Assembly (NCBI GenBank): GCA_020850355.1
Contig: JADZEX010000075.1
Location: forward strand, 1 to 64,000
Length of the DNA: 64,000 bases
Direction of reading: 5' to 3'
Source: Fimbriimonadaceae bacterium
GTDB taxonomy: Bacteria > Armatimonadota > UBA10988
Shown: positions 6,093 through 53,954 of the stretch, piece after piece
Layout: each line of letters opens with the position of its first letter
Numbering within the stretch: position 1 is the first letter of the stretch
Translations under genes and position numbers: made by a program
Notes under the pieces: generated by a model
Seen by the model: the letters and a program-made list of their open reading frames with translations, nothing else
Told to the model about the DNA's origin: nothing
Databases searched by the model: none

Positions 6093-7238
6093 GTGCGGAT
6101 CCTGGTCGCCCCGGATTCCTTCAAAGACTGCCTGCCGGCGGCGGCGGTGGCGGCGGCGCTGGCGGCCGGTTGTCGCCGCGTGGTGCCGGACGCGACGGTC
6201 GTCGAGCTGCCGCTGGCCGACGGCGGGCAGGGGACCACCGCGGCGCTGGTCGCCGCGCTCGGCGGCGAGTGGCGGACGGCCACCGTCAGCGACCCGTTAG
6301 GCCGGCCGATCAGCGCCCGCTTCGGCTGGCTCCCCGCCGAGCGCCTGGCGATCCTCGAGATGGCGTCCGCCTCGGGCTTGGAGCGGCTGGCCGCGACCGA
6401 GCGCGACGCGCGGGTGACCAGCACCGCCGGCACCGGCGAGCTGCTGCGGGCCGCGCTCGAGCTGGGCGCGCGGCAGATTCTGCTGGGCATCGGCGGCAGC
6501 GCCACCAACGATGGCGGCGCCGGATTCGCCACAGCCCTCGGCGCGCGGCTGCTGGACGGCCGTGGCGCTGAGCTGCCGCCCGGCGGCGCGGCGCTGGCGG
6601 GGCTGGCCCAGATCGACACCCGGGGGCTCGATCCACGGCTGACGCAGGTCGCGCTGCAGGTCGCCTGCGACGTCGACAACCCGCTCTGCGGGCCGCGCGG
6701 CGCGAGTGCGGTGTACGGTCCGCAGAAGGGCGCCGACAGCGCGGCGGTGGCTGTGCTGGATGCCGCCCTGGCGCACTACGGCTGCCTCTTGGCCCGCGAC
6801 CTCGGCCGGGCGGTGGCCGAGCAGCCTGGCGCCGGCGCGGCGGGCGGGCTGGGGGCGGGGCTGCTGGCCTTCACCTCGGCGCGGCTCTCGCCGGGGATCG
6901 AACTGGTCCTGCAGGCCGTGCGGTTCGACCAGCAGCTCGCCGACGCCGACTTGGTGATCAGCGGCGAGGGTCGCCTCGATGCGCAGACGCTGCACGGCAA
7001 GACGCTGGCCGGCGTGCTGCGGCACGCGCAACCGGCGGGCGTGCCGGTGGTGGCGGTGGCGGGCGCGGTCAGCGGGGACCTGGCGGCGCTGCGGGCCGCC
7101 GGCCTGGCGGGCGCGGTGGCCCTGCCGCGCGGGCCGTTGGATCTGGCGACGGCGCTGGCGCAGGCGCCCGAGCTGCTGGCGGTTGCCGCCGAGACGGTGC
7201 TCGGGATCTTCCTGGCGGGCCGTCAGCGCAGCTCGTAG
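6093..7238 (+). CDS. Glycerate kinase (type I, GlxK/GarK family)
   Basis: A 381-aa protein, the usual length of the family, which phosphorylates D-glycerate to 2- or 3-phosphoglycerate. Family landmarks are in order: VAPDSFKDCLPA at the N-terminus, GIGGSATNDGGAG in the middle and GEGRLDAQTLHGK toward the C-terminus. GTG 6093 is chosen because it places the V-R-I-L-V-A-P-D strand at the very start and follows GGAGAG (6083-6088). Its 3' end overlaps that of the convergent glycosyltransferase gene by 16 bases. Confidence 0.9.
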   Translation: MRILVAPDSFKDCLPAAAVAAALAAGCRRVVPDATVVELPLADGGQGTTAALVAALGGEWRTATVSDPLGRPISARFGWLPAERLAILEMASASGLERLAATERDARVTSTAGTGELLRAALELGARQILLGIGGSATNDGGAGFATALGARLLDGRGAELPPGGAALAGLAQIDTRGLDPRLTQVALQVACDVDNPLCGPRGASAVYGPQKGADSAAVAVLDAALAHYGCLLARDLGRAVAEQPGAGAAGGLGAGLLAFTSARLSPGIELVLQAVRFDQQLADADLVISGEGRLDAQTLHGKTLAGVLRHAQPAGVPVVAVAGAVSGDLAALRAAGLAGAVALPRGPLDLATALAQAPELLAVAAETVLGIFLAGRQRSS

Positions 7239-9394
7239 ACCGTCGTCAGGCGGGACTCGTCGGGAAACACCGGCACCAGGCGGCCAGCCGCAAGGGCCTG
7301 GGCCACCAACGCTGCGTCGTCGGTGCCGCTGGTGCGGTTGGTCGGAAAGGCCGGCTCGAAGACCAGCGCATGGGTCACGCCGAGCGCCCGCCAGGCCGCC
7401 AGGTAGGCGTCGACCGACCGCCGGGCGTGGTCGGCGATCAGCGTGTTGTGGCCGCGCTCGCCCCACAGGTAGTCGCGGTCCAGAGCGTAGCCGCGCGGCT
7501 CGCCGAGCAGGATCACCTTGGCGGTCGGGGCGGTGTGGGCGTTGATCCACTGCATCGCCCGCGTGCCCGGGGCGCCGCGTTGGAAGTACTCCTCGACGCT
7601 CCGCCCGCCCAGAGCCACCTGCAGCGCCGGGAACGTCGCGCGTTGGGTGTAGCCCAGCCCGCCGGCCACCTGCAGCGCCAGCGCCAGGGCCATGACGCTG
7701 CCGGCCAGTGGCAGCCGCAGCAGGGCGTCGGCACCCCAGGCCACCAGCAGCGCCCAGAGCGCGAGGTGCGGCACCAGGTAGCGGGTGTACTGCATCGAGA
7801 CGAACCAGAGCAGCCCCATCACCAGCAGATGCGCCACCAGCAGCGAGGCCACGCGGGCGGTGTCGATGGTGGTGGTCTCACGAATCGCTCGCGCCGTTGG
7901 GACCTCCACGGCGCGACCGAACTCGGGCCGGTAGACCTGCCGCACGGTCTCGTCCCGCGTCTCGGTGTAGGGCACCCAGGGCTCGCGCCGCCGGCGGCGG
8001 CGCAACCCGCCCAGCACCAGCAGGGCCGGCAGGCCGGCGGCCAGCCAGAGCGGGCCGAGGCGGCTCTGACCGTCGAAGGTGAGCCCCTTGTCGTAGAACC
8101 AGTCCGGGTCGAAGGTCACGTGCCAGGCCGCGGTCAGCAGGCGTGTCAAGCTGTGGTGGCTCCGCTCGGTGGGCTCCAGGACCTCCACGCTGCCATCCTC
8201 GCGGCGCCTGAAGGCGCGGCCGAAGTCGTGGTGCGCGGCCTGGTACTGCGCGGCGCGGTCGGCGCTCCAGTGTGGACTGGCGAAGACGCCGTGGGCGAAT
8301 GGGAAGACCGGGTTGCCCGTCGCCAGCCAGGTCCGCGCGATCCACGGCCCGGCGACCAGCGCCGCCAGCAGGGCCACCCGCAGGGCGTCGGCCCGGATCG
8401 CGCGCTGCGGCAGGCCGTCGCGCCAGCCGAGGCCGACGATCAGCGCCAGCAGGACCGCCACCACCAGCACCCCGGTGTACTTGGTGCCGTAACACAAGCC
8501 GCCAGCGAGGCCGATCAGCGGCAGCCACTGCGGCAGCCGGTCGCGCGGCTGGAAGCTGCCGTCGGGCCGTGCCCGCACGGCCTCGCTGCGCAGGTTGAGG
8601 TAGCGCAGCAGGCCCCACCAGGCCAGCAACTGGTAGACCGCGAACCCCGCCTCGGTGTAGGCGCTGCCCGCCTGGAACAGCACCAGCGGGGTGGTGGCAC
8701 ACAGCAGCACGGCCAGCCAGCCGCACCGGGGACCCAGGAAATCGCGGCCCAGGAGGCCGACCAGCAGCAGCGCCAGCAGGCCGTAAACGGTCTGCACCCC
8801 CTGCGCCAGCGAGGCGTCGCCGACCAGCAGGGCCAGCGTGTAGAGCATCTCCAGGGTCAGCGGGAAGGCCGTGTGGTGGTCGTAGGGCAGCACCGTCACC
8901 CAGCCGGTGCGGGCGTAGACCTTCGGGGCGGCGAGGTGGTAAGTCAGGTCGTCCCAGGCCACCGGAGGCAGCCAGGCCACCAGCAGCGCGGCCGCGGTCA
9001 GCAGCAGCAGCAGCAGCCCGACGGCCAGACTGGCCCAGCGCGGCCAGGCCCCACCGGGCCAGAGCTGCGGCCAGACCTCGACGGCTTCGAAGGCGACGGT
9101 CGTCTCCGCGGTGCGTCGCCGCAGTGCCGCGGCCGCCGCCCGCTCGCGCCGCAGCGGTGCCACGCCCAGCGCCAGCGCGCCGAGCAGCAGCAGCCAGGCG
9201 ACCGGGGTGGACAACCCGCCGAACAGGCCGACGGCCAGGGTGAGGTAGGCCAGCGCGGCGAGACCCAGCGGCAGCCGCACCGCCAGCTTGCGCAGCGGGC
9301 CGTCCAGCAGCAGCCGTTCGCAGCGCGCCAGCAGCGCGGTGCCGAGGGCGTAGCCCGCGGCGACGAACAGTGCCAGCAGCAGGGCCCGCGTCAC
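7223..9394 (-). CDS. Polytopic membrane glycosyltransferase (GT39/ArnT-like)
   Basis: About 723 aa with a dozen or so hydrophobic helices, for example near the start (ALLLALFVAAGYALGTALL) and through the middle. The first periplasmic loop has WDDLTYHLAAPK, matching the acidic D-(D/E)-x-x-Y-H motif of PMT/ArnT-type lipid-phosphosugar transferases. The C-terminal part is a soluble domain. The start is GTG 9394, which overlaps the stop of the small upstream ORF as GTGA. It probably adds sugars to a cell-envelope component; donor and acceptor are unknown. Confidence 0.75.
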   Translation of the reverse strand: MTRALLLALFVAAGYALGTALLARCERLLLDGPLRKLAVRLPLGLAALAYLTLAVGLFGGLSTPVAWLLLLGALALGVAPLRRERAAAAALRRRTAETTVAFEAVEVWPQLWPGGAWPRWASLAVGLLLLLLTAAALLVAWLPPVAWDDLTYHLAAPKVYARTGWVTVLPYDHHTAFPLTLEMLYTLALLVGDASLAQGVQTVYGLLALLLVGLLGRDFLGPRCGWLAVLLCATTPLVLFQAGSAYTEAGFAVYQLLAWWGLLRYLNLRSEAVRARPDGSFQPRDRLPQWLPLIGLAGGLCYGTKYTGVLVVAVLLALIVGLGWRDGLPQRAIRADALRVALLAALVAGPWIARTWLATGNPVFPFAHGVFASPHWSADRAAQYQAAHHDFGRAFRRREDGSVEVLEPTERSHHSLTRLLTAAWHVTFDPDWFYDKGLTFDGQSRLGPLWLAAGLPALLVLGGLRRRRRREPWVPYTETRDETVRQVYRPEFGRAVEVPTARAIRETTTIDTARVASLLVAHLLVMGLLWFVSMQYTRYLVPHLALWALLVAWGADALLRLPLAGSVMALALALQVAGGLGYTQRATFPALQVALGGRSVEEYFQRGAPGTRAMQWINAHTAPTAKVILLGEPRGYALDRDYLWGERGHNTLIADHARRSVDAYLAAWRALGVTHALVFEPAFPTNRTSGTDDAALVAQALAAGRLVPVFPDESRLTTVYELR

Positions 9395-43499: not shown

Positions 43500-44480
43500 A
43501 TGGATGCCGCTGAGTTCAGGGCCTTTCGCTTGCCCGCCGAGACGGTCGCGCGCTGCTGCGCCCGGCACGGTCTGGCGCCGCCGCGTCAGGTGGAGCGGAT
43601 TCGCAAGGGCGAGGTCAGCGCCAGTTTCAGCCTGGACCTGGCCGACGGCAGCAGCGCGGTGCTGAAGGTCTACTGCCGCAGCCAGGACCCTTCCTGGTTG
43701 CAGCGCGAGGCGGCCAGCCAGCAGTACCTCCGCCGCTACAGCGAGGTGCCCGGCCCGAGTTGGTCGATCCTCGACATCAGCGGCCGCGACGTGCCCTTTC
43801 CGTGCTACCTGATGCAACGCCTCGACGGCACCGACGGCGACGAGGTGGCGGCGACCGCCGACCGGACCAACCTGTTGCTGCTGCTGCGCCGCTGTGGCGA
43901 GACCCTGTCGCGGTTGCACCACACGCCGCTCAGTGACATCGGCGAGGCCGTGGCGCAGGGGCTCTACCCGGCGGAGCTGTGGGCCGAGCGCACCGCGGCG
44001 CAGTTCGAGACCGCGATCGACAGCCTGCGCGCCCAGGGCTGGTGCGACCCGGCGCTGCTGGACTCCAGCCTGGCCTCGTTCGAGGCTGGGCGGGCCGCCC
44101 TGACGGCGCCGTACGAGCCGGTCTTCTGCCACCGCGACTACCAGCTTTGGAACCTCCGCGTGGACCCCGCGACGCTGGCCATCCGGGGCGTCCTGGACTT
44201 CGATGCCGCGGGGCTGGGGCCGGCCGAGAGCGACGTGCGCGACTTGGAGCTGAACCTGTTTCTGGAGCAGCCCCGGCTGCGGCAGGAGTTCTGGCGCGGT
44301 TACGGTCGCCCGCGGCCCGACGGGGTGGCGGCCGAACGGCTCCGGCTGAGCTGCCTGGTGCGCGCCCTGTCGCTGCTGGCGGCTTACTGGGGCCCGACGG
44401 CGCGGGTCACGCCGGCGTCCGTCTGGCTGCTGTTGTCGCCCTGGATCTCCGACGCCGACGAGCTGCTCGGCGAGGGTTGA
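43500..44480 (+). CDS. Aminoglycoside-phosphotransferase-family kinase
   Basis: A 326-aa protein-kinase-like small-molecule kinase of the APH/choline kinase group. It has a nucleotide-binding N-lobe (SASFSLDLADGSSAVLKVY), the catalytic loop HRDYQLWNLRV and the metal-binding VLDFDAAG. Relatives phosphorylate aminoglycosides, choline, homoserine or sugars, so resistance should not be assumed. Its last 97 bases overlap the end of the convergent MATE gene. Confidence 0.8.
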   Translation: MDAAEFRAFRLPAETVARCCARHGLAPPRQVERIRKGEVSASFSLDLADGSSAVLKVYCRSQDPSWLQREAASQQYLRRYSEVPGPSWSILDISGRDVPFPCYLMQRLDGTDGDEVAATADRTNLLLLLRRCGETLSRLHHTPLSDIGEAVAQGLYPAELWAERTAAQFETAIDSLRAQGWCDPALLDSSLASFEAGRAALTAPYEPVFCHRDYQLWNLRVDPATLAIRGVLDFDAAGLGPAESDVRDLELNLFLEQPRLRQEFWRGYGRPRPDGVAAERLRLSCLVRALSLLAAYWGPTARVTPASVWLLLSPWISDADELLGEG

Positions 44481-45928
44481 GCGGGCGGCGCGGCGGCCTG
44501 CTCGATCACCTGCAGGTGCCGCCAGCCGCCCTGCTGAAAGCGCGCCAGCCAGAGCAGTGCCAGGGCCATCACGAAGATCGTGCAGGCCGTCCACATCGCG
44601 TAGAGCCCCAGCCGCAGGCGGTCGATCAGCAGCAGCACGCCGATGAACAGACCGTAGCCCGCCAGCGAGAGCAGCATCGTGGCGCGGGTGTCGCCGGCGC
44701 CCTGCAGCGCCGCCAGCAGGATCAGGTTGCAGGAGTCGAGCAGGCAGTAGAGCGCCACGTAGCGCAGTACCACCACGCCGATGCTCTGAATCTGGGCGAG
44801 GTGCGCGGCGCTGGTCGTGGCGGGGTCCAGGAAGTAGCCCAGCAGCGGCCGCGGGGCCAGCACGAAGAGCGCGCTGCAGGCGAGCATCCAGACTTGCGCC
44901 ACGGCCAGCCCGCGCCAGGCGACGCGGCGGCTGAGGTCGGGCCGGCGCCGGCCCTGGCACTGCCCGACCAGCGTCGCCACCGCGGCCGACAGGCCAAACA
45001 GCGGGAAGAAGGCCATCGAGTTGATCCGCCAGACGATGTTGGTGGCGGCCAGCTCGGTCTGGCCGATCCGGCCGATCAGCGCCACGAAGCAGGTCCAGCC
45101 GAGCAGCTCGACGGTGAAGCGCGCGCCGCTGGGGAAGCCGAAGCGCAGCAGGCGGCCGAACATCTCTGGTTGCAGCCGCCGCTGTTGCCAGGTGCCGAAC
45201 TCGCGGCGGTGGCGGCGGCGCAGGAACAGGGCCAGCCCGGCGAGGCCGTTCCAGAGGCTGCCGGCGACAGTCGCCCAGGCCGCCCCGGCGATGCCGAGCG
45301 CCGGGAACCCGGCCACGCCGAAGATCAGCAGGTAGGCCAGGATCAAGTTGATGGTCTGGCCGCAGAGCTGGATCCACATCACCGGCCGGGTGTCGGCGCG
45401 GCCTGAGAAGAAGCCACTGACGGCGCTGCCGACCAGGCCGGGAATCGCGCCGAGGCAGGCGATCCGCAGAAACAGCGCCTCCTGCCGCGCCAGCTCCGGC
45501 GCGTGCCCGATGGCCGCAAACAGCCCGCCGCCCCACCAGCCGAACAGCGTCACCAGCCCGCCGCCCAGCAGACCCAGCCAGATGCCCTGCCAGACGGCCG
45601 CCCCCAACCGCTCGCGTCGCCCGGCGCCGACGTACTGCGCCACCAGCGTGGCGGTGAAGCTGACGGCGCCCTGCAACGGGCTGAGCAGCAACCACTGCAG
45701 CAGCGAAGCGGCCCCATGGGCGGCGATGGCGGTCTCGCCGGAGCGAGCCAGGAACAGCCCATCGCAGAAGTGCATGATGGTCTGCGCACAAGTCGCCAAG
45801 GTCAGCGGCAGCGCCACCTGCAACAAGCTGCGCAAGCTGCTGGGATCGTCGCCGACCGGGGCAGCCAGCGGCGGCGGCAGGTGCTGCGCCGCCTCGGCGG
45901 CAGTCTGCTCCAGCAACGGCTCGTCCAT
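44384..45928 (-). CDS. MATE-family multidrug/metabolite exporter
   Basis: A 514-aa membrane protein with about 12 hydrophobic helices in two similar halves, starting at ATG 45928. Typical segments are LPLTLATCAQTIMHFCDGLFLA near the N-terminus, QYVGAGRRERLGAAVW in half one and VGQCQGRRRPDLSRRVAW in half two, the paired VGQxxGA-like motifs of MATE transporters. It should exchange cations for drugs or metabolites. The C-terminal tail of about 40 residues is polar and lies in the overlap with the kinase gene. Confidence 0.9.
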   Translation of the reverse strand: MDEPLLEQTAAEAAQHLPPPLAAPVGDDPSSLRSLLQVALPLTLATCAQTIMHFCDGLFLARSGETAIAAHGAASLLQWLLLSPLQGAVSFTATLVAQYVGAGRRERLGAAVWQGIWLGLLGGGLVTLFGWWGGGLFAAIGHAPELARQEALFLRIACLGAIPGLVGSAVSGFFSGRADTRPVMWIQLCGQTINLILAYLLIFGVAGFPALGIAGAAWATVAGSLWNGLAGLALFLRRRHRREFGTWQQRRLQPEMFGRLLRFGFPSGARFTVELLGWTCFVALIGRIGQTELAATNIVWRINSMAFFPLFGLSAAVATLVGQCQGRRRPDLSRRVAWRGLAVAQVWMLACSALFVLAPRPLLGYFLDPATTSAAHLAQIQSIGVVVLRYVALYCLLDSCNLILLAALQGAGDTRATMLLSLAGYGLFIGVLLLIDRLRLGLYAMWTACTIFVMALALLWLARFQQGGWRHLQVIEQAAAPPAQPSPSSSSASEIQGDNSSQTDAGVTRAVGPQ

Positions 45929-46112: not shown

Positions 46113-46556
46113 ATGGCGGGAGCGAGCGCGGGTCGGCTGACGGCGGAGCAAGCGCGGTTCTACCTGGCGCTGGGGGCGGTTGGCTATGTGCAGCCGGCGG
46201 CTGAGCTGGCGGAGGTGACGTTGAGTGAGGCGTGGGCCTGGGCGCTGGCGGTCGAGCGGCCGAGCTGGGCGAATCGCCGGGGCGAGGCGGCGATGCGGTT
46301 GTTCGGTCTGGCGACCAGCGCGGCGGAGCTGGTGCGGGTGCTGCTGCACAGTCCGGAGGCGGTCCCGGGGCCGCGGTTGCGGGAGCTGGTGCATGTGGCC
46401 GAGCGTTTCTACGCGGCGGCTCTGCGGTTGGACAAGGATGTGGCCAGCGATGGGCAAGCGGCGTGGCAGCTCGACCTGGACGGCTGGGCCGCCGGCGCGG
46501 ACGTGGCGAGTGGAGCTGCCGCCACCGCATCCGGGGCAGGTGACCGTGATGCGTGA
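46113..46556 (+). CDS. Probable small terminase subunit / HTH protein
   Basis: A 147-aa, mostly helical protein whose N-terminal half reads like a DNA-binding helix-turn-helix (LTAEQARFYLALGAVGYVQPAAELAEVTLSEAWAWAL split over two helices). It sits directly before a large terminase, the normal place for TerS. ATG 46113 is chosen because GGAGG lies seven bases upstream; an earlier in-frame ATG at 45993 has no such signal. The annotation rests mainly on position and helical character. The C-terminus overlaps the terL start. Confidence 0.55.
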   Translation: MAGASAGRLTAEQARFYLALGAVGYVQPAAELAEVTLSEAWAWALAVERPSWANRRGEAAMRLFGLATSAAELVRVLLHSPEAVPGPRLRELVHVAERFYAAALRLDKDVASDGQAAWQLDLDGWAAGADVASGAAATASGAGDRDA

Positions 46557-47706
46557 CCCGGCGCGCTTCAAGGTGCTCTGCTGCGGTCGCCGCTGGGGCA
46601 AATCGACCCTCGCGCTGAATGCCTGCCTCGAGGCGATTGGCCAGGGCGCGCAGGTGGTCTGGTACGTCGCCCCGACCTTCCGGATGGTCGACCTGCACTG
46701 GCGGACGCTGCGGCGCCACCTGCGGGGGCGCTTTCCGGGCACGCTGCACCAGGCCCAGCGCCGTGCGGTCTTCGCGACCGGGGCCGAGATCGCGTTCCGC
46801 AGTGCCGACAACCCGGATCACCTCCGCGGGGTGGGGTTGGACTACCTGGTGGTTGACGAGGCGGCCTTCCTGCCCGACGGCGCGGCGGTCTGGGGCGAGG
46901 CCTTGCGGCCGGCGCTGGCGGACCGCCGGGGCCGGGCGCTGATCATCAGCACGCCGAAAGGGCGCAACTTCTTCCACCAGCTCTGGCTCCGCGGCCGCGA
47001 TCCGCAGCAGGGCGAGTGGGCGGCGTTCCGTTATCCGACTGCCAGCAACCCGTACATCGCCGCCGGCGAGGTGGCCGCGGCCCGGGCCGAGCTGCCGCAG
47101 CGGATCTTCGAGCAGGAGTTCGAGGCGGCCTTCCTGGACGACGGCGGCGCGGTCTTCCGCGGGGTCCGCCAGGCCGCCGTGGCGACGCCGACGGCGCCCT
47201 ATCCCGGACGCTTCGTGATCGGCGTCGACTGGGCCAAGCGCGAGGACTACACGGTCTTCGTGGTGCTCGACACGCTGGCCCAGACCGTTGTGGCGGTCGA
47301 GCGCTTCAACCAGATCGACTACACGCTGCAGACCCAGCGGCTGCAGGCGCTCTGTGCGGCCTGGGCGCCGGTGGCGGTGCAGGCCGAGCAGAACAGCATC
47401 GGCGAGCCGCTGCTGGAGCAGTTGCAGCGCGATGGCCTGCCGGTGCGCGGCTTCAAGACCACCGCCGGGAGCAAGGCCAAGGTGATTGAGCAGTTGGCCC
47501 TGGCGCTGGAGCAGGGCGCGCTGCGGCTGCCGCCCAACGAGGTGCTGCTGGCCGAACTGGAGGCCTACACCCTGGAGCCGACCCGCGGCGGGTCGTTTCG
47601 CTACAGCGCCCCGCCGGGTCTGCACGACGACACGGTGATGGCCCTGGCACTGGCCTGGGACGCCCGCGACGCGGTGATCGCCGGGTCGTTGGCGGAGTGG
47701 TTCTGA
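46510..47706 (+). CDS. Phage-type large terminase subunit (TerL)
   Basis: About 398 aa with both terminase halves. The ATPase has an adenine-loop region PHPGQ, Walker A CGRRWGKST (residues about 25-33) and Walker B YLVVDEAAF (about 113-120). The RNase H-like nuclease has VIGVDWAK (about 237), the middle acidic AEQN and HDDT near 371. It pumps and cuts DNA during head filling. GTG 46510 keeps the PHPGQ segment; ATG 46549 is the alternative. All catalytic motifs appear intact. Confidence 0.9.
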   Translation: MELPPPHPGQVTVMRDPARFKVLCCGRRWGKSTLALNACLEAIGQGAQVVWYVAPTFRMVDLHWRTLRRHLRGRFPGTLHQAQRRAVFATGAEIAFRSADNPDHLRGVGLDYLVVDEAAFLPDGAAVWGEALRPALADRRGRALIISTPKGRNFFHQLWLRGRDPQQGEWAAFRYPTASNPYIAAGEVAAARAELPQRIFEQEFEAAFLDDGGAVFRGVRQAAVATPTAPYPGRFVIGVDWAKREDYTVFVVLDTLAQTVVAVERFNQIDYTLQTQRLQALCAAWAPVAVQAEQNSIGEPLLEQLQRDGLPVRGFKTTAGSKAKVIEQLALALEQGALRLPPNEVLLAELEAYTLEPTRGGSFRYSAPPGLHDDTVMALALAWDARDAVIAGSLAEWF

Positions 47707-47722
47707 GGTCGAGGAGGACCCG

Positions 47723-48928
47723 ATGGCAAGTTCGTTGACGCGTTGGTGGCAGCGTCGTCGCACGGCGCGCGAGACCGCCCCGCCGGCTGGCCGGCTGGCC
47801 GGCGAGCAGTTGGCCTACGCCGCCAGCGACCGCCGGCAGGGCGCCGAGCCGGCGTTGCTGGAGTACGAAGCAGCCTACGCCAGTTGCGACGACGTCTACG
47901 CGGCGGTCTCGCTGCTGGCCGACAACGCCGCGATGGTGCCGCTGCGGGTGCTGGTGGCGGGGCAGGCGGCGCCGGAGCATCCGTTGCAGCGGCTGCTGGA
48001 CCGCGCGAATCCCCAGCAGGGCGCCAAGCAGTTCTGGATCCGGGCCTATGCGCAGCTCTGGCTGACCGGGGAGACCTACCTCGTGGTCGAGCGTCAGCAC
48101 CCGCTGGACGCTGACCGCCCGAGCGAGCTGTGGGCCTTCAGCGGTCGCGTGATGGAGCCGCTGCCCGACCCGCAGCAGTACCTCCGCGGCTACCGCTTCC
48201 GGCCGCCGGGGACCGCTGGCGACGGGGTCGAGCTGGCGCCGCGCGATGTCGTGCCGGTGCTGCTGTTCCACCCGACGCGCCCCCTGCGCGGCCTCTCACC
48301 GCTGACGGCCCTGCGGCTGGGCCTGGCCACCGAACTGCACGCCAAGCGGGCCAACCATGACCTGTTCCGCAACGGCCTGCTGACCGACGTCGCGATCAGC
48401 TTCGACTTCGCCAGCGACGAACAGCGTCAACGCACCCGCGAGGCGCTGCGCCAGGCCCACGCGGCCGACGGTCGGCGGCACGGCATTCTGGTGCTGGAGA
48501 ACAGCACCCGCGTCGAGAAGCTGTCGCTGAGCCCGCGCGATGCCGAGTTCCTGGAGCTCGACAAGCTGACCACCCGCGACGTCGCGAAGGCCTACCGCAT
48601 CCCGCCGATGTTCCTGGCGCAGCTCGACCACGCCACGCTGCGCAACTACGAGACGGCCTACCGGGCGCTCTGGGAGCTGGCGATTCTGCCGCGGGTGGGG
48701 CAAATGGCGACCGCCCTGACCGAGCATCTGGCGGCGCAGTACGGGCCGACCGTGACCGTCGAGCCGGACCTCAGCGGAATCGAGGTGCTGCGGGCTGCCG
48801 ACCGCGAGCGGGCCGCGACCTACGGGGCGCTGGTCGCGGCGGGACTGGCCCCGCAGTGGGCGGGGCAGCGGGTCTTCGGCAGTGGCTGGAGCGCCGCGGC
48901 GCTGGCCGCGGGGGAGGTGGGACGATGA
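47723..48928 (+). CDS. HK97-family portal protein
   Basis: A 401-aa protein with the HK97 portal layout: YASCDDVYAAVSLLADNAAMVPLRV near residues 50-75, WLTGETYLVV, a central RGLSPLTALRLGL, LRQAHAADGRRHGILVLE, and the late KAYRIPPMFLAQLDHATLRNYE region that contacts the clip. It forms the 12-subunit DNA gate of the capsid. It follows terL by 16 bases and its stop overlaps the protease start (ATGA). Confidence 0.92.
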   Translation: MASSLTRWWQRRRTARETAPPAGRLAGEQLAYAASDRRQGAEPALLEYEAAYASCDDVYAAVSLLADNAAMVPLRVLVAGQAAPEHPLQRLLDRANPQQGAKQFWIRAYAQLWLTGETYLVVERQHPLDADRPSELWAFSGRVMEPLPDPQQYLRGYRFRPPGTAGDGVELAPRDVVPVLLFHPTRPLRGLSPLTALRLGLATELHAKRANHDLFRNGLLTDVAISFDFASDEQRQRTREALRQAHAADGRRHGILVLENSTRVEKLSLSPRDAEFLELDKLTTRDVAKAYRIPPMFLAQLDHATLRNYETAYRALWELAILPRVGQMATALTEHLAAQYGPTVTVEPDLSGIEVLRAADRERAATYGALVAAGLAPQWAGQRVFGSGWSAAALAAGEVGR

Positions 48929-49983
48929 GCCAGCAGCGCGGCGGCCGGCCGGTGCAGCCGGCCGACCTGGACGGCAATCGGTTGCGGGCGCTGATTTCGG
49001 CGGAATCCTGCGACCGCGACGGCGAACTGCTGCTGGCGGCCGGCTGCGACCTGGCGGCGTACCGCGCCAACCCGGTGGTGCTCTGGTCGCACGACCCGAG
49101 CATCCCGCCGATCGGCCGGGCCGTCGAGGTCTGGGCCGAGCCGGGGGTCGGCGTGTGGGCCATCAACGAGTTCGCCGCGACGCCCTTCGCCCAGGAGATT
49201 GCGCAGCTCTACCGCGAGGGCTTCCTGCACGCCTTCAGCGTCGGCTTCCGCGTCTTGGAGGCGGGCCGGGGCACCGCCCAGGGCCAGGCGGTGGTCCGGC
49301 GCTGGGAGCTGTTGGAGCAGAGTGCGGTGGCGGTGCCGGCCAATCCGGCCGCTCTGACGGTGGCGGCCGAGGCTGGCAACAAGGCCGCCGACTGGCTGCT
49401 GCGGACCTATTACCCGGCGGCCGCGACAAGCGACCTGGCGCGGCGGCTGGGCCTGCGGGCGGACCTGCCGTGGCCGGCGCTGGCGTCGCTCTGCTGCCGC
49501 TTCTATGGCTTCCGCGGCGGGTTGGAGCTGGACCCGGCGGAGCGCCCCGCCGCCGAAGCGCTGCTGCGGACGGCCTACGACCAGGCGGGCCGGCGCTTCC
49601 CGCAGCCGCGGCCGGGGCGCCGGCGGCCGGAGTTTCTGGAAGATGAACCAGTCCATTTCGAGGAGGGCTGCTGGACCGAACTGACGCAGCGCTTGCGCGG
49701 TACGGCCGAAGCCCTTCGCAACCTCGCCCGTCGGCGTCGCCGCCGCGGACTGCCGTTGCCGGAGCTCGATCCGGCGCGCGCCGCGGCGGCCGCCCTGCAC
49801 GAACTGCTGGACCCGCCCGGAGCTCCATCCGGTGCGGCCGCGGGCGATCTGGAACGCGCCCTGGCCGAGCTGCGCCGTGACCTGACGGCGTGGCAGGCCG
49901 CTCGTGCCGCGACCGTGGGGGCGGCGGTGGAAGCCCTCCGCCGCCCCGGCGGCCGGCGTCAGCCGCACTGCGGGTTGCTGTGA
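48925..49983 (+). CDS. HK97-type prohead protease with long C-terminal extension
   Basis: A 352-aa protein. The first 170 residues are the herpesvirus-assemblin/HK97 protease: ISAESCDRDGE, LWSHDP with the catalytic histidine (about 55) and HAFSVGF with the nucleophile serine (about 104). Ordinary HK97 proteases stop near 200 aa. The remaining 180 residues are Arg/Ala-rich and helical, with a charged C-terminal stretch, which may be a fused scaffold (delta-like) domain. The start overlaps the portal stop. Confidence 0.87.
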   Translation: MSQQRGGRPVQPADLDGNRLRALISAESCDRDGELLLAAGCDLAAYRANPVVLWSHDPSIPPIGRAVEVWAEPGVGVWAINEFAATPFAQEIAQLYREGFLHAFSVGFRVLEAGRGTAQGQAVVRRWELLEQSAVAVPANPAALTVAAEAGNKAADWLLRTYYPAAATSDLARRLGLRADLPWPALASLCCRFYGFRGGLELDPAERPAAEALLRTAYDQAGRRFPQPRPGRRRPEFLEDEPVHFEEGCWTELTQRLRGTAEALRNLARRRRRRGLPLPELDPARAAAAALHELLDPPGAPSGAAAGDLERALAELRRDLTAWQAARAATVGAAVEALRRPGGRRQPHCGLL

Positions 49984-49999
49984 CCTCAAGGAGATCCCG

Positions 50000-51307
50000 T
50001 TGAACGACCTGTTGCGTGAACTGCGTGAGCTGAAGGAGCAGATCCGCCGGGAGCATGACCCGGCGCGGCTGCAGGAGGCCATCCGCCAGGCGGTCGAGAC
50101 CGTCCCGAGCGGCCCCAGCCGACTCGGCGCGTTGGAGGTGAGTGGCGCCGAGGGCGGCGCGCCGAGTCTCAAGGGCCTGCTGCAGCGGCCCGCCGGCAAC
50201 GACCGCGAGCGCGAGCTGCAGCGGCTCAACGACCGGCTGCACCTCTGTGGGACGTTGCTCCGCCGCGACCCCCGCCGGCTGAAGGGCTGGGCCGACTTCC
50301 AGCGCCTCGGCGGCGAGCTGCGCAAGGCGCTCAACACCGCCGACCACGAGGAGTTTGTGCCCGACGGCTTCAGCGTTTCGCTGATCGAAGAGGTCCGCCT
50401 GCAGCGCCGGCTGCCGGTGCTCTTCGAGCAGGTGCTGCTGCCGCGTTCGCCGCTCAAGTGGCCGGTCGAGGGGGGCATCGGGCTGCCCTTCCTGGTGGCC
50501 GAGAACAGCGGCGACACCGCCGCCAAGGTGCCCACCCGCAACCCGGCGACCTGCGATGTGACCTTCCAGGCGCGCACCCTCGGCGTGCGGGTGCCGTTCA
50601 GCCACGAGTTTGACGAGGACAGCATCGTGGCGGCCGAGGACTACGTCCGGCGGCAGATCGCCAAGGCGCTGACCGACGGGCTCGAGACCGCGATCCTGAA
50701 CGGCGACACCAGCGCGACGCATCTCGACGGCACTGTGACGGCGGCCAACGACGCGCGGCGCGTCTTCCGCGGGCTGCGCAAGCTGGCGACGCTGCCGACG
50801 CCGGCCAGCCAGTACGACGTGACCACCGGCGGCAACGGCTTCAGCCAGAGCGACCTGGTCACGGTGCGCCGCCAGATGGGTGTCTACGGCGTTGATCCGC
50901 GGGACCTGGTGCTGATCGTCTCGGTCAAGACCTACTACAAGATCATCGGCGACAGCACCAACTTCGGGGACTTCCAGACCCTCGACAAAGTCGGCCCGCA
51001 GGCCATCAACGTCACCGGCGAGGTCGGCGCCCTGTACGGCGTGCCCGTGGTGGTCAGCGCGGCGATGCCGGAGACCTGCGCCAACGCCGCGACCGACAGC
51101 GGCAGTGGCAGCGACGCCGTGCTGGTGCTGGCCAACCGCCGCGCCTACGCCCTGGCGACGCAGGTCAGCCCGACCATCGAGACCGTCTGGGACCCCGAGG
51201 CGCTGCAGTTCAAGGTAGTCGGCTTCTGCCGCGTCGACTTCCAGCCCTGGTTCGACCCGACCAGCGAGCGCGCTGTCAGCGTCGGCTACAACATCGACGT
51301 CGCCTAG
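50000..51307 (+). CDS. HK97-fold major capsid protein
   Basis: A 435-aa protein starting at TTG 50000, six bases after AAGGAG. The first 50 or so residues form a charged helix (LLRELRELKEQIRREH), the delta/scaffold type. The rest matches HK97 major capsid: PFLVAENSGDTAAKVPT, VPFSHEFDEDS, the A-domain VLANRRAYAL and the C-terminal strand VGFCRVDFQPWF. The upstream protease would remove the N-terminal helix in maturation. No disruption is visible. Confidence 0.92.
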   Translation: MNDLLRELRELKEQIRREHDPARLQEAIRQAVETVPSGPSRLGALEVSGAEGGAPSLKGLLQRPAGNDRERELQRLNDRLHLCGTLLRRDPRRLKGWADFQRLGGELRKALNTADHEEFVPDGFSVSLIEEVRLQRRLPVLFEQVLLPRSPLKWPVEGGIGLPFLVAENSGDTAAKVPTRNPATCDVTFQARTLGVRVPFSHEFDEDSIVAAEDYVRRQIAKALTDGLETAILNGDTSATHLDGTVTAANDARRVFRGLRKLATLPTPASQYDVTTGGNGFSQSDLVTVRRQMGVYGVDPRDLVLIVSVKTYYKIIGDSTNFGDFQTLDKVGPQAINVTGEVGALYGVPVVVSAAMPETCANAATDSGSGSDAVLVLANRRAYALATQVSPTIETVWDPEALQFKVVGFCRVDFQPWFDPTSERAVSVGYNIDVA

Positions 51308-51328
51308 CCAGCGCCTTAGGAGAACCCC

Positions 51329-51598
51329 ATGCCGACCTTCAATGGCCTCAATACGGCGATGTTCCAGGTCACCGTGATCGACGGCGCCGCCGCGGCGACC
51401 GCGCTGACGGTCAGCGGCATCGCCCCCGCCGACGTGCTGCTGATGGTGTTGCACCAGGACTCGACGGGCCTGCTGCTGGCCGACCTCACCAACGAGGCCA
51501 GCATTACCGCCGTCGACACGGTGCAGTTGAGCAGCACCGCCACCACCGGTGACAAGCTGGTCGTGGCCTGGCTCGATCTGAGCCAGCCCGAACGCTAG
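51329..51598 (+). CDS. Small beta-rich protein next to capsid gene
   Basis: An 89-aa, beta-strand-rich protein with AGGAG shortly before its ATG. I do not recognise a family. It lies between the capsid gene and a hairpin that may limit downstream transcription, so it is probably made in amounts like the capsid protein, which suggests a decoration or cement protein by analogy. That is inference. Confidence 0.55.
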   Translation: MPTFNGLNTAMFQVTVIDGAAAATALTVSGIAPADVLLMVLHQDSTGLLLADLTNEASITAVDTVQLSSTATTGDKLVVAWLDLSQPER

Positions 51599-51609
51599 CC
51601 ACCACCCCC

Positions 51610-51636
51610 GCCCGGGGCCGGCCGCCGGCCCCGGGC
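51610..51636 (+). terminator. Intra-operon attenuator hairpin
   Basis: A perfect 12-bp GC stem with a three-base loop (51610-51621 with 51625-51636) between the small capsid-adjacent gene and the connector gene. No U-tract follows, so it may only reduce read-through. Confidence 0.5.
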
Positions 51637-51652
51637 CTGCCGGGAGCTGTCG

Positions 51653-52255
51653 ATGTCGCTGACCCCCGAGGCGCTCACGACCGTCGCCACGTTGCGCCAG
51701 TGGCTGACCCAGGACACCGTCGCCGACACCGGCGGGCGCTTCGCCGAGGCGCCGCTGGAGGGCCTGATCAACCGCGCCAGCAGCGCCATCGCGACGTGGT
51801 GCGACCGCCGGCTGGTGGCGCCCGCCGAGCTGACCAGCTACCGGCTGGATGGCTCCGGAGGCAACCTCCTGGTGCTGCCGCAGTGGCCAGTGGCCGAGCT
51901 GACGACCGTCCGCGTCGACGCCCAGGAGGTGCCGCCCCGCGACGTCGGCGGCGGCGCCGGCTGGGTCTGCGACTCCTTCGTCGGTCGTCTGACCCTCTAC
52001 GGCGCGACCTTCGCGCGGGGCGCGCAGAACGTCGAGGTGCTCGCCCGGCTGGGCTACTGCCCGAGCTGTGCCGCGACGCAGTTGCACCACTCCGCGGCGC
52101 TGGCCGATCTGGAGCAGGCCTGCCTGCTGCTGGCCGCCTGCTGGTTCCGCCGACCGGTCGCCGAGCTGGTCGGCGCCGAGCGGGCCGCGCCGCCCGAGCC
52201 GCTGCCGGCCGAGGTGCGCAGCCTGCTGCTGCCGTTCCGCCGGCTGGGAGGCTGA
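51653..52255 (+). CDS. Head-tail connector/adaptor protein
   Basis: A 200-aa protein with the mostly helical pattern of gp6-like connectors: a N-terminal helix (LTTVATLRQWLTQDT), LINRASSAIATWCDRRL, a short beta insert with WPVAELTTVRVDA and a C-terminal helical segment with LEQACLLLAACWF. It would dock below the portal. The position directly after the capsid genes is the normal one. Confidence 0.7.
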   Translation: MSLTPEALTTVATLRQWLTQDTVADTGGRFAEAPLEGLINRASSAIATWCDRRLVAPAELTSYRLDGSGGNLLVLPQWPVAELTTVRVDAQEVPPRDVGGGAGWVCDSFVGRLTLYGATFARGAQNVEVLARLGYCPSCAATQLHHSAALADLEQACLLLAACWFRRPVAELVGAERAAPPEPLPAEVRSLLLPFRRLGG

Positions 52256-52256
52256 C

Positions 52257-52724
52257 ATGCCCGACCACCTCAGCGCGCTGCGTGAGCTGTTCGCCGGGAC
52301 CGCGCTGCGCGAGGCCTACAACGCAGTGCTGGCGGCGCGCGGGCTGGCCGGACTGAGCGCCACGCCCATCTTGAGCAGCCGGCGCGAGCTGCGCGGCGCC
52401 GGCCGCTGGCCGGCCCTGGCCTGCGAGCTGGGCAGCGTGGCCAGCCAGCGGGAGGGGGCCGGCGGGCTGCGCAGTCTGCGGGGCGAGGCGACCTGGTGGC
52501 TGGCGCTGGCGGCGCCGGCCGACGAGACCCTGGCGGCCCGCGCCGCGGCCTACCTCGACAGCCTCCGCGAAGCGCTCGAAGCCACGCTCCCCGCCGCCCT
52601 GCAACGCTTCGAGTGCAGCGCGTTGGAGCTGGGCGGGGAGCCGCTCCGGGAGGTCGGCCTGGCCGCCCACCTGTACAGCCTCCGCGGGCGCTACTGCTGG
52701 CTCTATCAGGCGGCTGGCGCCTGA
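52257..52724 (+). CDS. Head-completion/tail-terminator candidate
   Basis: A 155-aa protein of unrecognised family, one base after the connector stop. It starts with a helix (LSALRELFAGTALREAYNAVL) and later has alternating strands (ATWWLALAAP, ALELGGEPLREVGLAAHLYSL). In tailed phages and gene transfer agents this position encodes the head-closure or tail-terminator protein. Function is by position only. Confidence 0.5.
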   Translation: MPDHLSALRELFAGTALREAYNAVLAARGLAGLSATPILSSRRELRGAGRWPALACELGSVASQREGAGGLRSLRGEATWWLALAAPADETLAARAAAYLDSLREALEATLPAALQRFECSALELGGEPLREVGLAAHLYSLRGRYCWLYQAAGA

Positions 52725-52747
52725 CCTGTGACCGACAAGGAGACCGC

Positions 52748-53146
52748 ATGGCCACCAAGACCACCCGCAAGTCGGGCGAGAATCACCTCGTCAAGTTCGG
52801 GACCACCACGCTGGGCACGGCGCGCTTCACGCGACTGCGGCTGACGATTCGGAGCGTCGACGCCCGTGGCAGCGGCGATGGGGGGCCAGTTGACAAGGAG
52901 CTGGGCCTCGACAGCGGCGAGCTGCAGGCGACCTACCTGATCACCGACGAGGCCACCCTGGCGCTGCTCGGAACCTACAACACGGTGCTGCTGCAGGATT
53001 CCGCTGGGGACACCGTCTTCAGCGGCGGCGCGCTGCTGCGCGAGGTGCAGCGCCGCGAGTCGCACGAGGACATGACCATCGTCGACGCGCTGTTCCAGCT
53101 CCAGGGCCTGCCGACCGTGCCGGACCTGAGCGGTCTGGGCGCCTGA
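52748..53146 (+). CDS. Tail-tube-like protein candidate (last gene of module)
   Basis: A 132-aa protein with a perfect AAGGAG five bases before ATG. It is beta-rich with a basic N-terminus (KTTRKSGENHLVKFG) and resembles small tail-tube or baseplate-hub beta barrels. It lacks the size of a typical tail-tube protein of about 140-200 aa. It is the last gene before a hairpin; no tape measure or tail tip genes follow. Confidence 0.45.
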   Translation: MATKTTRKSGENHLVKFGTTTLGTARFTRLRLTIRSVDARGSGDGGPVDKELGLDSGELQATYLITDEATLALLGTYNTVLLQDSAGDTVFSGGALLREVQRRESHEDMTIVDALFQLQGLPTVPDLSGLGA

Positions 53147-53151
53147 GATCC

Positions 53152-53185
53152 GAGTCGGGGGTCGGCTGTGGTCGGCCCCCGACTC
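53152..53185 (+). terminator. Terminator at the end of the head module
   Basis: A perfect 10-bp stem (53152-53161 with 53176-53185) just after the last module gene; its right arm overlaps the stop codon of the convergent lipoprotein gene. Confidence 0.65.
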
Positions 53186-53954
53186 AGGGCACCGTGACGT
53201 TGACCTGCACGCTCAGCGTGCCGCCGTTGGAGGTGACGGTCACCGTGGCGGTGTGGACCCCCGGCTCCAACCCCGTGCGGTCGACGGTCAGCGTCAGGTC
53301 CTGCGGGGCGTTGCCGCTGGCCGGGGTGACCGCCAGGAAGGTCGCGTCGTCGCTGACACTGAAGGTCAGCGTCCCGGCGCCCGCGTTGCTGACGGCCACA
53401 GGGTGCGTCGTTTCGGCCGCGGCGAAGTTGACCGTGGTGGCGCCGAGCGCCAGCCGCGGGTCGCCCGCGACGCCGCCGCCACCACCGCCGCCACCGGTCC
53501 CAGCGTCGGGGTCGTCGGGCACCGCGTCGCCAAGCACGGCCACCGTGCCGACCGAGTTGGTGACGGTCAAGCGACAGCGGGTGCTGTTGTTGAAGAGCTG
53601 GATGGTGAAGTTGCTGGCCAGCCCGGTGCTGCTGCTGCCGCGGGCCAGGATCTGGTTCAGCCGCAGGCTGATCACCTCCAGCACCGCGTTGGCGTACTGG
53701 TTGTCGGTCGAGGTCAGCCGGGCGGCGACCTCGTTGGCGCCAACCGCGCGGCCGGCCGCGGCGAGGTCTTGCAGCGTCAGGGTGAGCTGCGCGTCGCTGA
53801 AGCCGGCGCCGTCGACGTGGTTGAACGTGAAGGCGCGGGTGCCGTCAAAGCCGAGCTTGTCGCCGTCGGTGCCGAGCCCGCCGGAGCCGCCGCAGGCAGC
53901 CGCCAGCGCGACCAGGGCGAGAGCTGTCAGGAACTGGGTGAGTCGTCGTGCCAT
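53184..53954 (-). CDS. Lipoprotein with BACON/immunoglobulin-like domain
   Basis: A 256-aa protein with a lipoprotein signal (lipobox LALAAAC, cysteine near 21). Residues about 25-150 form an unrecognised domain, followed by a glycine-rich linker (run of eight Gly) and a C-terminal beta-sandwich with the BACON-like pattern (VTPASGNAPQDLTLTVDR, GVHTATVTVTSNGG). BACON domains bind glycans or mucin in gut bacteria and occur in phages; here the role is unknown. It may be a host surface protein or a module-associated one. Confidence 0.7.
   Translation of the reverse strand: MARRLTQFLTALALVALAAACGGSGGLGTDGDKLGFDGTRAFTFNHVDGAGFSDAQLTLTLQDLAAAGRAVGANEVAARLTSTDNQYANAVLEVISLRLNQILARGSSSTGLASNFTIQLFNNSTRCRLTVTNSVGTVAVLGDAVPDDPDAGTGGGGGGGGVAGDPRLALGATTVNFAAAETTHPVAVSNAGAGTLTFSVSDDATFLAVTPASGNAPQDLTLTVDRTGLEPGVHTATVTVTSNGGTLSVQVNVTVP

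Follow-up and report, generated by a model that had tools for sequence, protein, structure and literature searches.

What does an intact set of phage head genes do in a bacterial chromosome when the rest of a phage does not lie beside it? The question is raised by the window analysed here, a 64,000-nucleotide stretch of contig JADZEX010000075.1 from a metagenome-assembled genome (MAG) of the family Fimbriimonadaceae (Armatimonadota). An earlier note, made from the sequence alone, had described a complete HK97 head-packaging module at positions 46113-53146, without integrase, lysis or tail genes, and had read it as a GTA-like (gene transfer agent) or domesticated capsid locus rather than an active prophage. 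Nine intact, co-oriented and closely packed open reading frames occupy this interval, as described; they are listed here with their flanking features.

44384..45928, minus strand: MatE-type transporter, divergent, outside the module (named from its ORF sequence; homologues elsewhere in G001 and G003)
46113..46556, plus strand: TerS candidate, 147 aa, helix-turn-helix-like N-terminus (50% identical to a G001 homologue directly 5' of TerL)
46549..47706, plus strand: terminase large subunit TerL, 385 aa (Pfam Terminase_6N/6C and phrog_2)
47723..48928, plus strand: portal protein (PF04860, 3.7e-59)
48925..49983, plus strand: prohead maturation protease, S78 (PF04586, Peptidase_S78, 1.8e-7; phrog_80)
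50000..51307, plus strand: HK97-fold major capsid protein, TTG start at 50000 (PF05065, 2.2e-11)
51329..51598, plus strand: small protein, 89 aa (50% identical to a G002 homologue in the same position)
51653..52255, plus strand: head-tail adaptor, Ad1 (phrog_442, 6.3e-19; homologues in G002 and G003)
52257..52724, plus strand: g8, probable tail terminator (from position only)
52748..53146, plus strand: g9, modelled as a tail tube protein (AF2 model and Foldseek)
53149..53190, no strand: hairpin between convergent genes at the module end (MFE -34.1 kcal/mol, z -5.1)
53184..53954, minus strand: host lipoprotein with a BACON domain, outside the module (PF19190, 3.5e-6)

The genes expected of an HK97-type head-packaging module, encoding TerL, portal, S78 protease and HK97-fold capsid, are present in that order. 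TerL matched Terminase_6C (3.9e-11), phrog_2 (3.2e-39) and Terminase_6N, and is intact as had been claimed, with Walker A (CGRRWGKS), Walker B (VVDEAAF) and the nuclease acidic motifs (GVDWAK, AEQN and HDD) all there; these catalytic motifs are kept across the family, except at the G002 N-terminus, which is lost at a contig end. Protease residues H56 and S105 are kept in G002 and G001, and the capsid family profile matches solved HK97-type capsids (for example, 5tjt at 8e-19). The helix-turn-helix region of the TerS candidate matched viral TerS weakly (hhalign E 0.002, probability only 13%), while the small protein is probably a head decoration protein, judging by gene position. Pfam and PHROGs returned no significant family for the TerS candidate, the small protein, g8 or g9. 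The TerS and TerL genes overlap by 8 bp and the portal/protease junction is an ATGA overlap. The closing hairpin (53153) is strong (-34 kcal/mol) but lacks the T-run of a terminator, and an Rfam search returned nothing.

The assertion that tail genes are lacking held only in part. By sequence, g9 found no meaningful match in the PDB, and profile patterns for g9 and capsid yielded 0 confirmed homologues among viral contigs, where the capsid by itself matched a single contig (30%). The AF2 model of g9 (pLDDT 61), however, was matched by Foldseek to PDB structures of the phage 812 neck/tail tube, RcGTA (6toa/6tba), lambda gpV and Hcp1 (probability ~1.0, best E 1.2e-4), and in a viral library to tail tube/TP901-1 major tail proteins. 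Because g9 models as a tail tube protein, the module is read as running from head through neck to tail tube and ending before the tape measure. The position of g8 between adaptor and tail tube, the same order as in Tunturi_4 and other siphophages, makes it a probable tail terminator; structural and profile arguments for this assignment were dropped, as its AF2 model is poor (pLDDT 44) and comparison with other terminator-like proteins was negative.

Family-by-family searches, which are insensitive, found neither tape measure (PF10145, PF09718) nor conserved tail tip (PF13550) in the genomes of this bacterial family, and no lysis gene belonging to the module was found there. Contig C61 of G000 carries phage tail genes, which we rejected as the module's missing part: they are likely foreign, with deviating codon usage, and are absent from relatives. 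The best phage matches of C61 are Rhizobium and Bradyrhizobium phages (32-33%), and the contig resembles an unrelated phage of alphaproteobacterial type.

Cellular genes flank the module on either side within its 125.7-kb contig, where rpoBC is about 10 kb away, and the G002 module is likewise followed by cellular genes. Its composition is host-like, in agreement with the earlier note: codon usage and GC3 agree (pooled GC3 of 0.918, compared with 0.914 for the host). Among the families listed for the 125.7-kb contig (the best 25 of 45 and the best 25 of 113), there was no integrase, again as the note had stated, and no further phage structural gene elsewhere. No tRNA was found, and searching for att-like repeats returned just imperfect GC-rich matches, so that the combination of nearby integrase and att repeats, named beforehand as the mark of a normal prophage, is not seen on the contig. 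None of the features of an active temperate prophage (integrase, att site, replication and lysis genes, a contiguous genome) was found there, as far as the listed families show, and the genes are split in the sister genus.

Four genomes of the family (G000-G003), all MAGs of 72-95% completeness, were compared. Capsid and TerL are present in all four and portal in three, as single copies. Across the phylum, 9 of 291 genomes had capsid matches at E ≤ 1e-10; the five outside the family are all distant, and no capsid of comparable closeness was found among the 287 other genomes. Module proteins diverge at about the RpoB rate, with identities of 62-73% (TerL), 68-71% (portal), 67-74% (capsid) and 60-73% (g9), compared with 75% for RpoB, and dN of 0.24 for TerL and 0.21 for RpoB; dS is near saturation, which makes dN/dS qualitative only. 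Path lengths in the TerL tree resemble those of RpoB (0.55 versus 0.56; 0.85 versus 0.72), and G001 and G003 are joined in both trees, a congruence test that is weak with n = 4 taxa. Both g8 (38-41% identity) and the adaptor (52%) are fast-evolving. Ordinary flanking genes are less conserved (RlmN 62-64%, MatE 43-52%) and scattered among relatives; gene order is therefore not kept in this family. The same head-to-tube span persists in G000 and G002, the G002 contig starting within TerL.

In the sister genus, the module genes are spread over two or three loci, an arrangement that a functional prophage could not have. TerS-TerL and portal-capsid-g9 of G001 lie on separate contigs among non-phage neighbours. 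Searches of this genome found no adaptor, g8 (terminator) or small gene; it has a truncated protease fused to the capsid, and its TerL is followed by a DDE transposase. In G003, TerL, capsid-g9-adaptor and g8 are carried by three contigs. After the G001 portal-capsid-g9 block come proteins that, judged by eye, resemble a toxin/immunity pair, with no Pfam match. The earlier note had regarded inactivating changes in relatives as evidence against its reading; the sister genus bears this out in part, through the G001 losses, fusion and transposase.

Occurrence in 4/4 genomes of the family, divergence like that of RpoB, codon usage matching the host and the multi-locus split therefore favour domestication, and this part of the original proposal, domestication over an active prophage, is well supported, whereas its GTA part is not established: GTA-like function is the likeliest reading of the sequences and stays an unproven candidate. 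The locus looks like a tamed virus that has come to serve its host, with movement of cellular DNA as a possible role. We would give about even chances to an ancient, vertically inherited HK97-type head-neck-tail-tube cluster that is selected as a host trait (a viriform) and has packaging-competent products. A siphophage cluster would have been captured before the family diversified and inherited vertically thereafter, selection keeping it as such a trait. Its products may still assemble a procapsid, which the S78 protease would mature; TerS, TerL and portal would then fill the head headful-wise with whatever DNA TerS admits, presumably mostly host DNA because no phage genome is left to package, and adaptor, g8 and g9 would build neck and tube. 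For delivery in GTA fashion, genes that are dispersed or have escaped recognition would have to supply the tail tip, the tape measure and lysis.

We compared the locus with the six features of GTAs in PMC9662315. It is fully endogenised and, as often in GTAs, multi-locus (chromosomal contigs, with two loci in G001 and three contigs in G003), and its presence in 4/4 members with RpoB-like divergence points to vertical inheritance and host co-diversification, weakly so with four taxa. As for tailed-virion-like particles built from caudoviricete proteins, homology extends over head, neck and tube, and the tail is incomplete. The features also include encapsidation of mostly random host DNA, a genome too large for its own particle and delivery to other cells (PMC9662315).

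Could the head genes instead be left over from a decaying ancestral prophage, without present function? The missing tail, lysis and integration genes, the sister-genus losses, fusion and transposase, and a g8 nearly free of constraint would all fit. We nevertheless think it unlikely, given that TerL, portal, capsid and g9 are intact at RpoB-like divergence in three to four genomes, where a neutral copy should have gained stops or frameshifts well before 30% protein divergence, and that G000 and G002 retain the same span. Quite unlikely, too, is a domesticated capsid with a non-transfer role, such as interfering with superinfection, forming tailless particles that contain DNA or acting together with toxin-like cassettes. 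The lack of a detected tape measure or tip and the toxin-like neighbours in G001 would suit such a role, but the full packaging set (intact TerL nuclease, TerS and portal) points to DNA filling, and those neighbours are limited to G001.

Capsid-encoding satellites (cf-PICIs) bring genes of their own for head and packaging, though none for a tail; they are mobile, with integrase, regulators and att sites. Head and neck genes without tails are typical satellite cargo, and a satellite in G000 might have borrowed helper-phage tails of the C61 kind. This is very improbable here, as no integrase, regulator or replication gene was seen with the capsid genes among the families listed for the contig, nor was an att site, divergence is of the vertical type with dispersal over several loci, and the C61 tail genes are alphaproteobacterial-phage-like, deviate in codon usage and are absent from relatives. 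An ordinary inducible prophage whose remainder fell into assembly gaps is hardly credible, even for a MAG and with related head genes inside ordinary prophages of other Armatimonadota, as contig continuity in two genomes, with cellular flanks, already contradicts it.

Domestication of the packaging module remains our preferred reading. Most other Armatimonadota TerLs form their own clade apart from the window family's, and a separate TerL lineage in 14 other Armatimonadota genomes follows the host RpoB phylogeny (9/11 splits shared). A single phylum-wide origin that includes the window's TerL was rejected, as the tree places the window family among viral contigs (89-91 SH-aLRT). Tentatively, Armatimonadota may have seen at least two domestications, one of an HK97-type head and tube and an older one of a TerL lineage with Mu-type head genes, co-diversified over seven families, both without recognisable tape measures and possibly a new short-tailed or tailless kind of GTA. 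In the literature searched, no GTA was described for Armatimonadota. Known GTAs come from few lineages, each recognised through its head-tail cluster; if our reading is correct, a head-to-tube cluster would add a new phylum and an intermediate anatomy. Comparing module and RpoB divergence offers a practical test to tell domesticated loci from phage turnover, and the host-tracking TerL lineage suggests very long retention of packaging genes, which bears on why bacteria keep GTAs.

Among known systems, the terminases of Thermus phages P23-45/P74-26 and of Tunturi_4 are homologous to the module's TerL (31-32% identity over ~95% of its length), but come from phages that are lytic or free and possess tails and complete genomes. 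HK97-type prophages of Armatimonadota (G251, G254 and G012) encode distantly related capsid, portal, protease and adaptor proteins, arranged as in siphophages; they differ in having tail genes or a recombinase, a patchy distribution and up to two capsids per genome. BaGTA (Bartogtaviriformidae) resembles the module in its phage-derived packaging genes kept vertically, whereas no tail, lysis or replication-origin module was found with the Armatimonadota genes. RcGTA has a complete tail in its main cluster, while the Armatimonadota cluster, in a different phylum, ends after the tube. RcGTA and RcGTA-like elements (Rhodogtaviriformidae) nonetheless likewise combine TerL, portal, protease, capsid, connectors and tail tube in an HK97-type head cluster, and the g9 model matches the tail tube of RcGTA; they share vertical inheritance with the module, and RcGTA-like genes can also occupy several loci (PMC9662315).

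The module lies on a 125.7-kb contig of a 6.67-Mb MAG (G000), in a window of about 71% GC. The closest relatives are Armatimonadota, among them G001, G002 and G003 of the same family, of which G001 and G003 form a sister genus. The genes rpoB and rpoC are located ~10 kb upstream, placing the module in housekeeping territory. Its gene list and coordinates, first read from sequence in an earlier note, hold:

46113-53146, nine intact genes in one orientation: terminase small subunit (TerS) candidate, terminase large subunit (TerL), portal, S78 protease, HK97 capsid, 89-aa protein, adaptor, g8, g9

The module is unlikely to be an active prophage. We found no tRNA, and neither the nearby integrase nor the att-like repeats by which the earlier note would have recognized one (for the integrase, among the best 25 families listed per family table, outside which a weak additional match might lie). 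The note's further claim of host-like codon use is borne out: pooled GC3 is 0.918 against 0.914 in the host, and synonymous-usage divergence does not exceed that of single large host genes.

No sequence family could be assigned to g9. Its AlphaFold model, generated from the four family sequences, has tube topology (pLDDT 61). Using Foldseek, we found that PDB matches were mostly tail tubes and their relatives, including those of the phage 812 neck and tail tube (E = 1.2e-4), of the gene transfer agent RcGTA (tube; 6toa, 6tba), lambda gpV, a monocin tube and Hcp1, while a viral library returned tail-tube and TP901-1 major tail proteins. Although model confidence is middling, these hits agree strongly, and g9 is predicted to be a tail tube protein, not a head gene. 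The supposed lack of tail genes thus applies only beyond the tube, where the module stops, immediately before the chaperone and tape-measure positions. g8 occupies the tail terminator's place in siphophages, between adaptor and tube, as in phage Tunturi_4; neither its predicted model nor profile comparison supported that function. With g9 as the tube, the cluster would follow canonical siphophage order; the module contains no stopper-like gene.

TerL and capsid are single-copy in all four family genomes examined; three of them also yielded a portal, the exception being G003, whose assembly is 80% complete. Searching 291 phylum genomes for the capsid gave only five matches outside the family, all distant (G251, G254, G258, G222 and G012); where the context suffices, these loci resemble ordinary prophages, having tail genes or a recombinase. 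In G012, four sugar-transferase or methyltransferase genes are inserted between connector and tail-terminator-like genes (L078:4670-8533), and the tape-measure-like protein is short (292 aa). In G251, the capsid gene lies immediately upstream of a MerR-like gene and a large serine recombinase gene, with no tail genes between (L242:11263-15049), possibly representing a capsid-carrying satellite.

Within the family, protein identity is 62–73% for TerL, 68–71% for portal, 67–74% for capsid and 60–73% for g9. For RpoB, which evolves slowly and serves as the yardstick, G000 and G001 share 75% identity (dN 0.21, versus 0.24 for TerL). Paths through the TerL and RpoB trees are of much the same length: 0.55 and 0.56 between G000 and G001, and 0.85 and 0.72 between G000 and G003; G001 groups with G003 in both trees. 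As dS is near saturation in these GC-rich genomes, the case does not rest on dN/dS. Ordinary flanking genes are less conserved (RlmN 62–64%, MatE 43–52%) and are scattered over unrelated contigs. The family thus does not conserve gene order, and unlike flanks around the module in G000 and G002 are no argument for independent insertion. What has been retained as a core, namely TerL, portal, capsid and tube, is exactly the slow-evolving part.

In the sister genus the genes are split. In G001, TerS-TerL sits in the middle of contig C27, upstream of a DDE transposase and other genes not of phage type, while portal, protease-capsid and g9 are on C70:

L076:3079-4971 (G001): shortened protease N-terminal domain fused in frame to the major capsid protein, then g9 and a partial second g9

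Large proteins resembling polymorphic toxin/immunity genes, without Pfam hits, border these genes (L076:73-2284, 6300-7688). No copy of the adaptor, g8 or small gene turned up in any part of the G001 genome, suggesting that the sister genus may be able to do without neck functions, or may be losing them to decay. In G003, TerL, capsid-g9-adaptor and g8 occupy three separate contigs, and the gene following TerL is glycosyl-hydrolase-like and oppositely oriented. Such dispersal is impossible for a functional prophage and frequent among gene transfer agent (GTA) genomes (PMC9662315, PMC11841831).

Searches for tape-measure genes elsewhere (PF10145, PF09718) gave no significant match in family genomes, while the tail-tip family PF13550 gave one in G000:

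C61 (L228; 5529 bp): tail genes resembling those of alphaproteobacterial phages (tape-measure-like end, NlpC-like gene, J-type tip)

These searches are insensitive, PF09718 having given no match on C61 either. We rejected C61 as the module's missing part: among phages it matches those of Rhizobium and Bradyrhizobium best (32–33%), its codon usage deviates from the host and it has no counterpart in any relative. It most likely represents an unrelated phage or contaminant.

TerLs of most other Armatimonadota form a separate clade (SH-aLRT 94).

L044-L045, L047-L056, L058-L059: TerL sequences compared with RpoB

Among these 14 genomes from seven families, picked for having this TerL and with losses uncounted, 9 of 11 splits are common to both trees, versus at most four in 10,000 label shuffles. 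This TerL, evolving ~2-fold faster than RpoB (median ratio 1.9), has therefore co-diversified with its hosts: a phage terminase under ancient vertical inheritance. Two species of genus g22 carry it at the front of a conserved cluster of Mu-type head genes (PF06074 portal, gpT capsid) in which no tail genes were seen:

L045:4651-15049 (G036) and
L047:4422-15533 (G023): TerS-like, TerL, aquaporin (MIP; separating TerL from portal at both loci), Mu portal, cement, gpT capsid, adaptor-like, stopper-like, and terminal holin-like and amidase genes

In genus g7, TerL stands alone, intact at ~440 aa (L049, L050, L051 and L052), and in three of the four species its neighbour is NFACT; HK97 portal and capsid families are absent from these genomes. 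In three genomes of family f14 (L053, G016; L054, G052; L056, G042), TerL has a Mu-type portal gene directly after it as sole partner, without capsid. The G016 pair adjoins accD/accA, which also flank the G036 cluster.

Our preferred reading is a packaging module that has been domesticated and still produces DNA-filled heads. Of the earlier proposal of a GTA-like or domesticated locus, domestication is upheld by vertical inheritance, dispersal and host codons, with GTA status a candidate only. Judged from sequence, the module likely works like a GTA. Its head, neck and tube proteins are related to those of tailed phages, with an incomplete tail. Of the six published features defining GTAs (PMC9662315), it displays two, endogenization over multiple loci and vertical inheritance, being present in all four family genomes with RpoB-like divergence.
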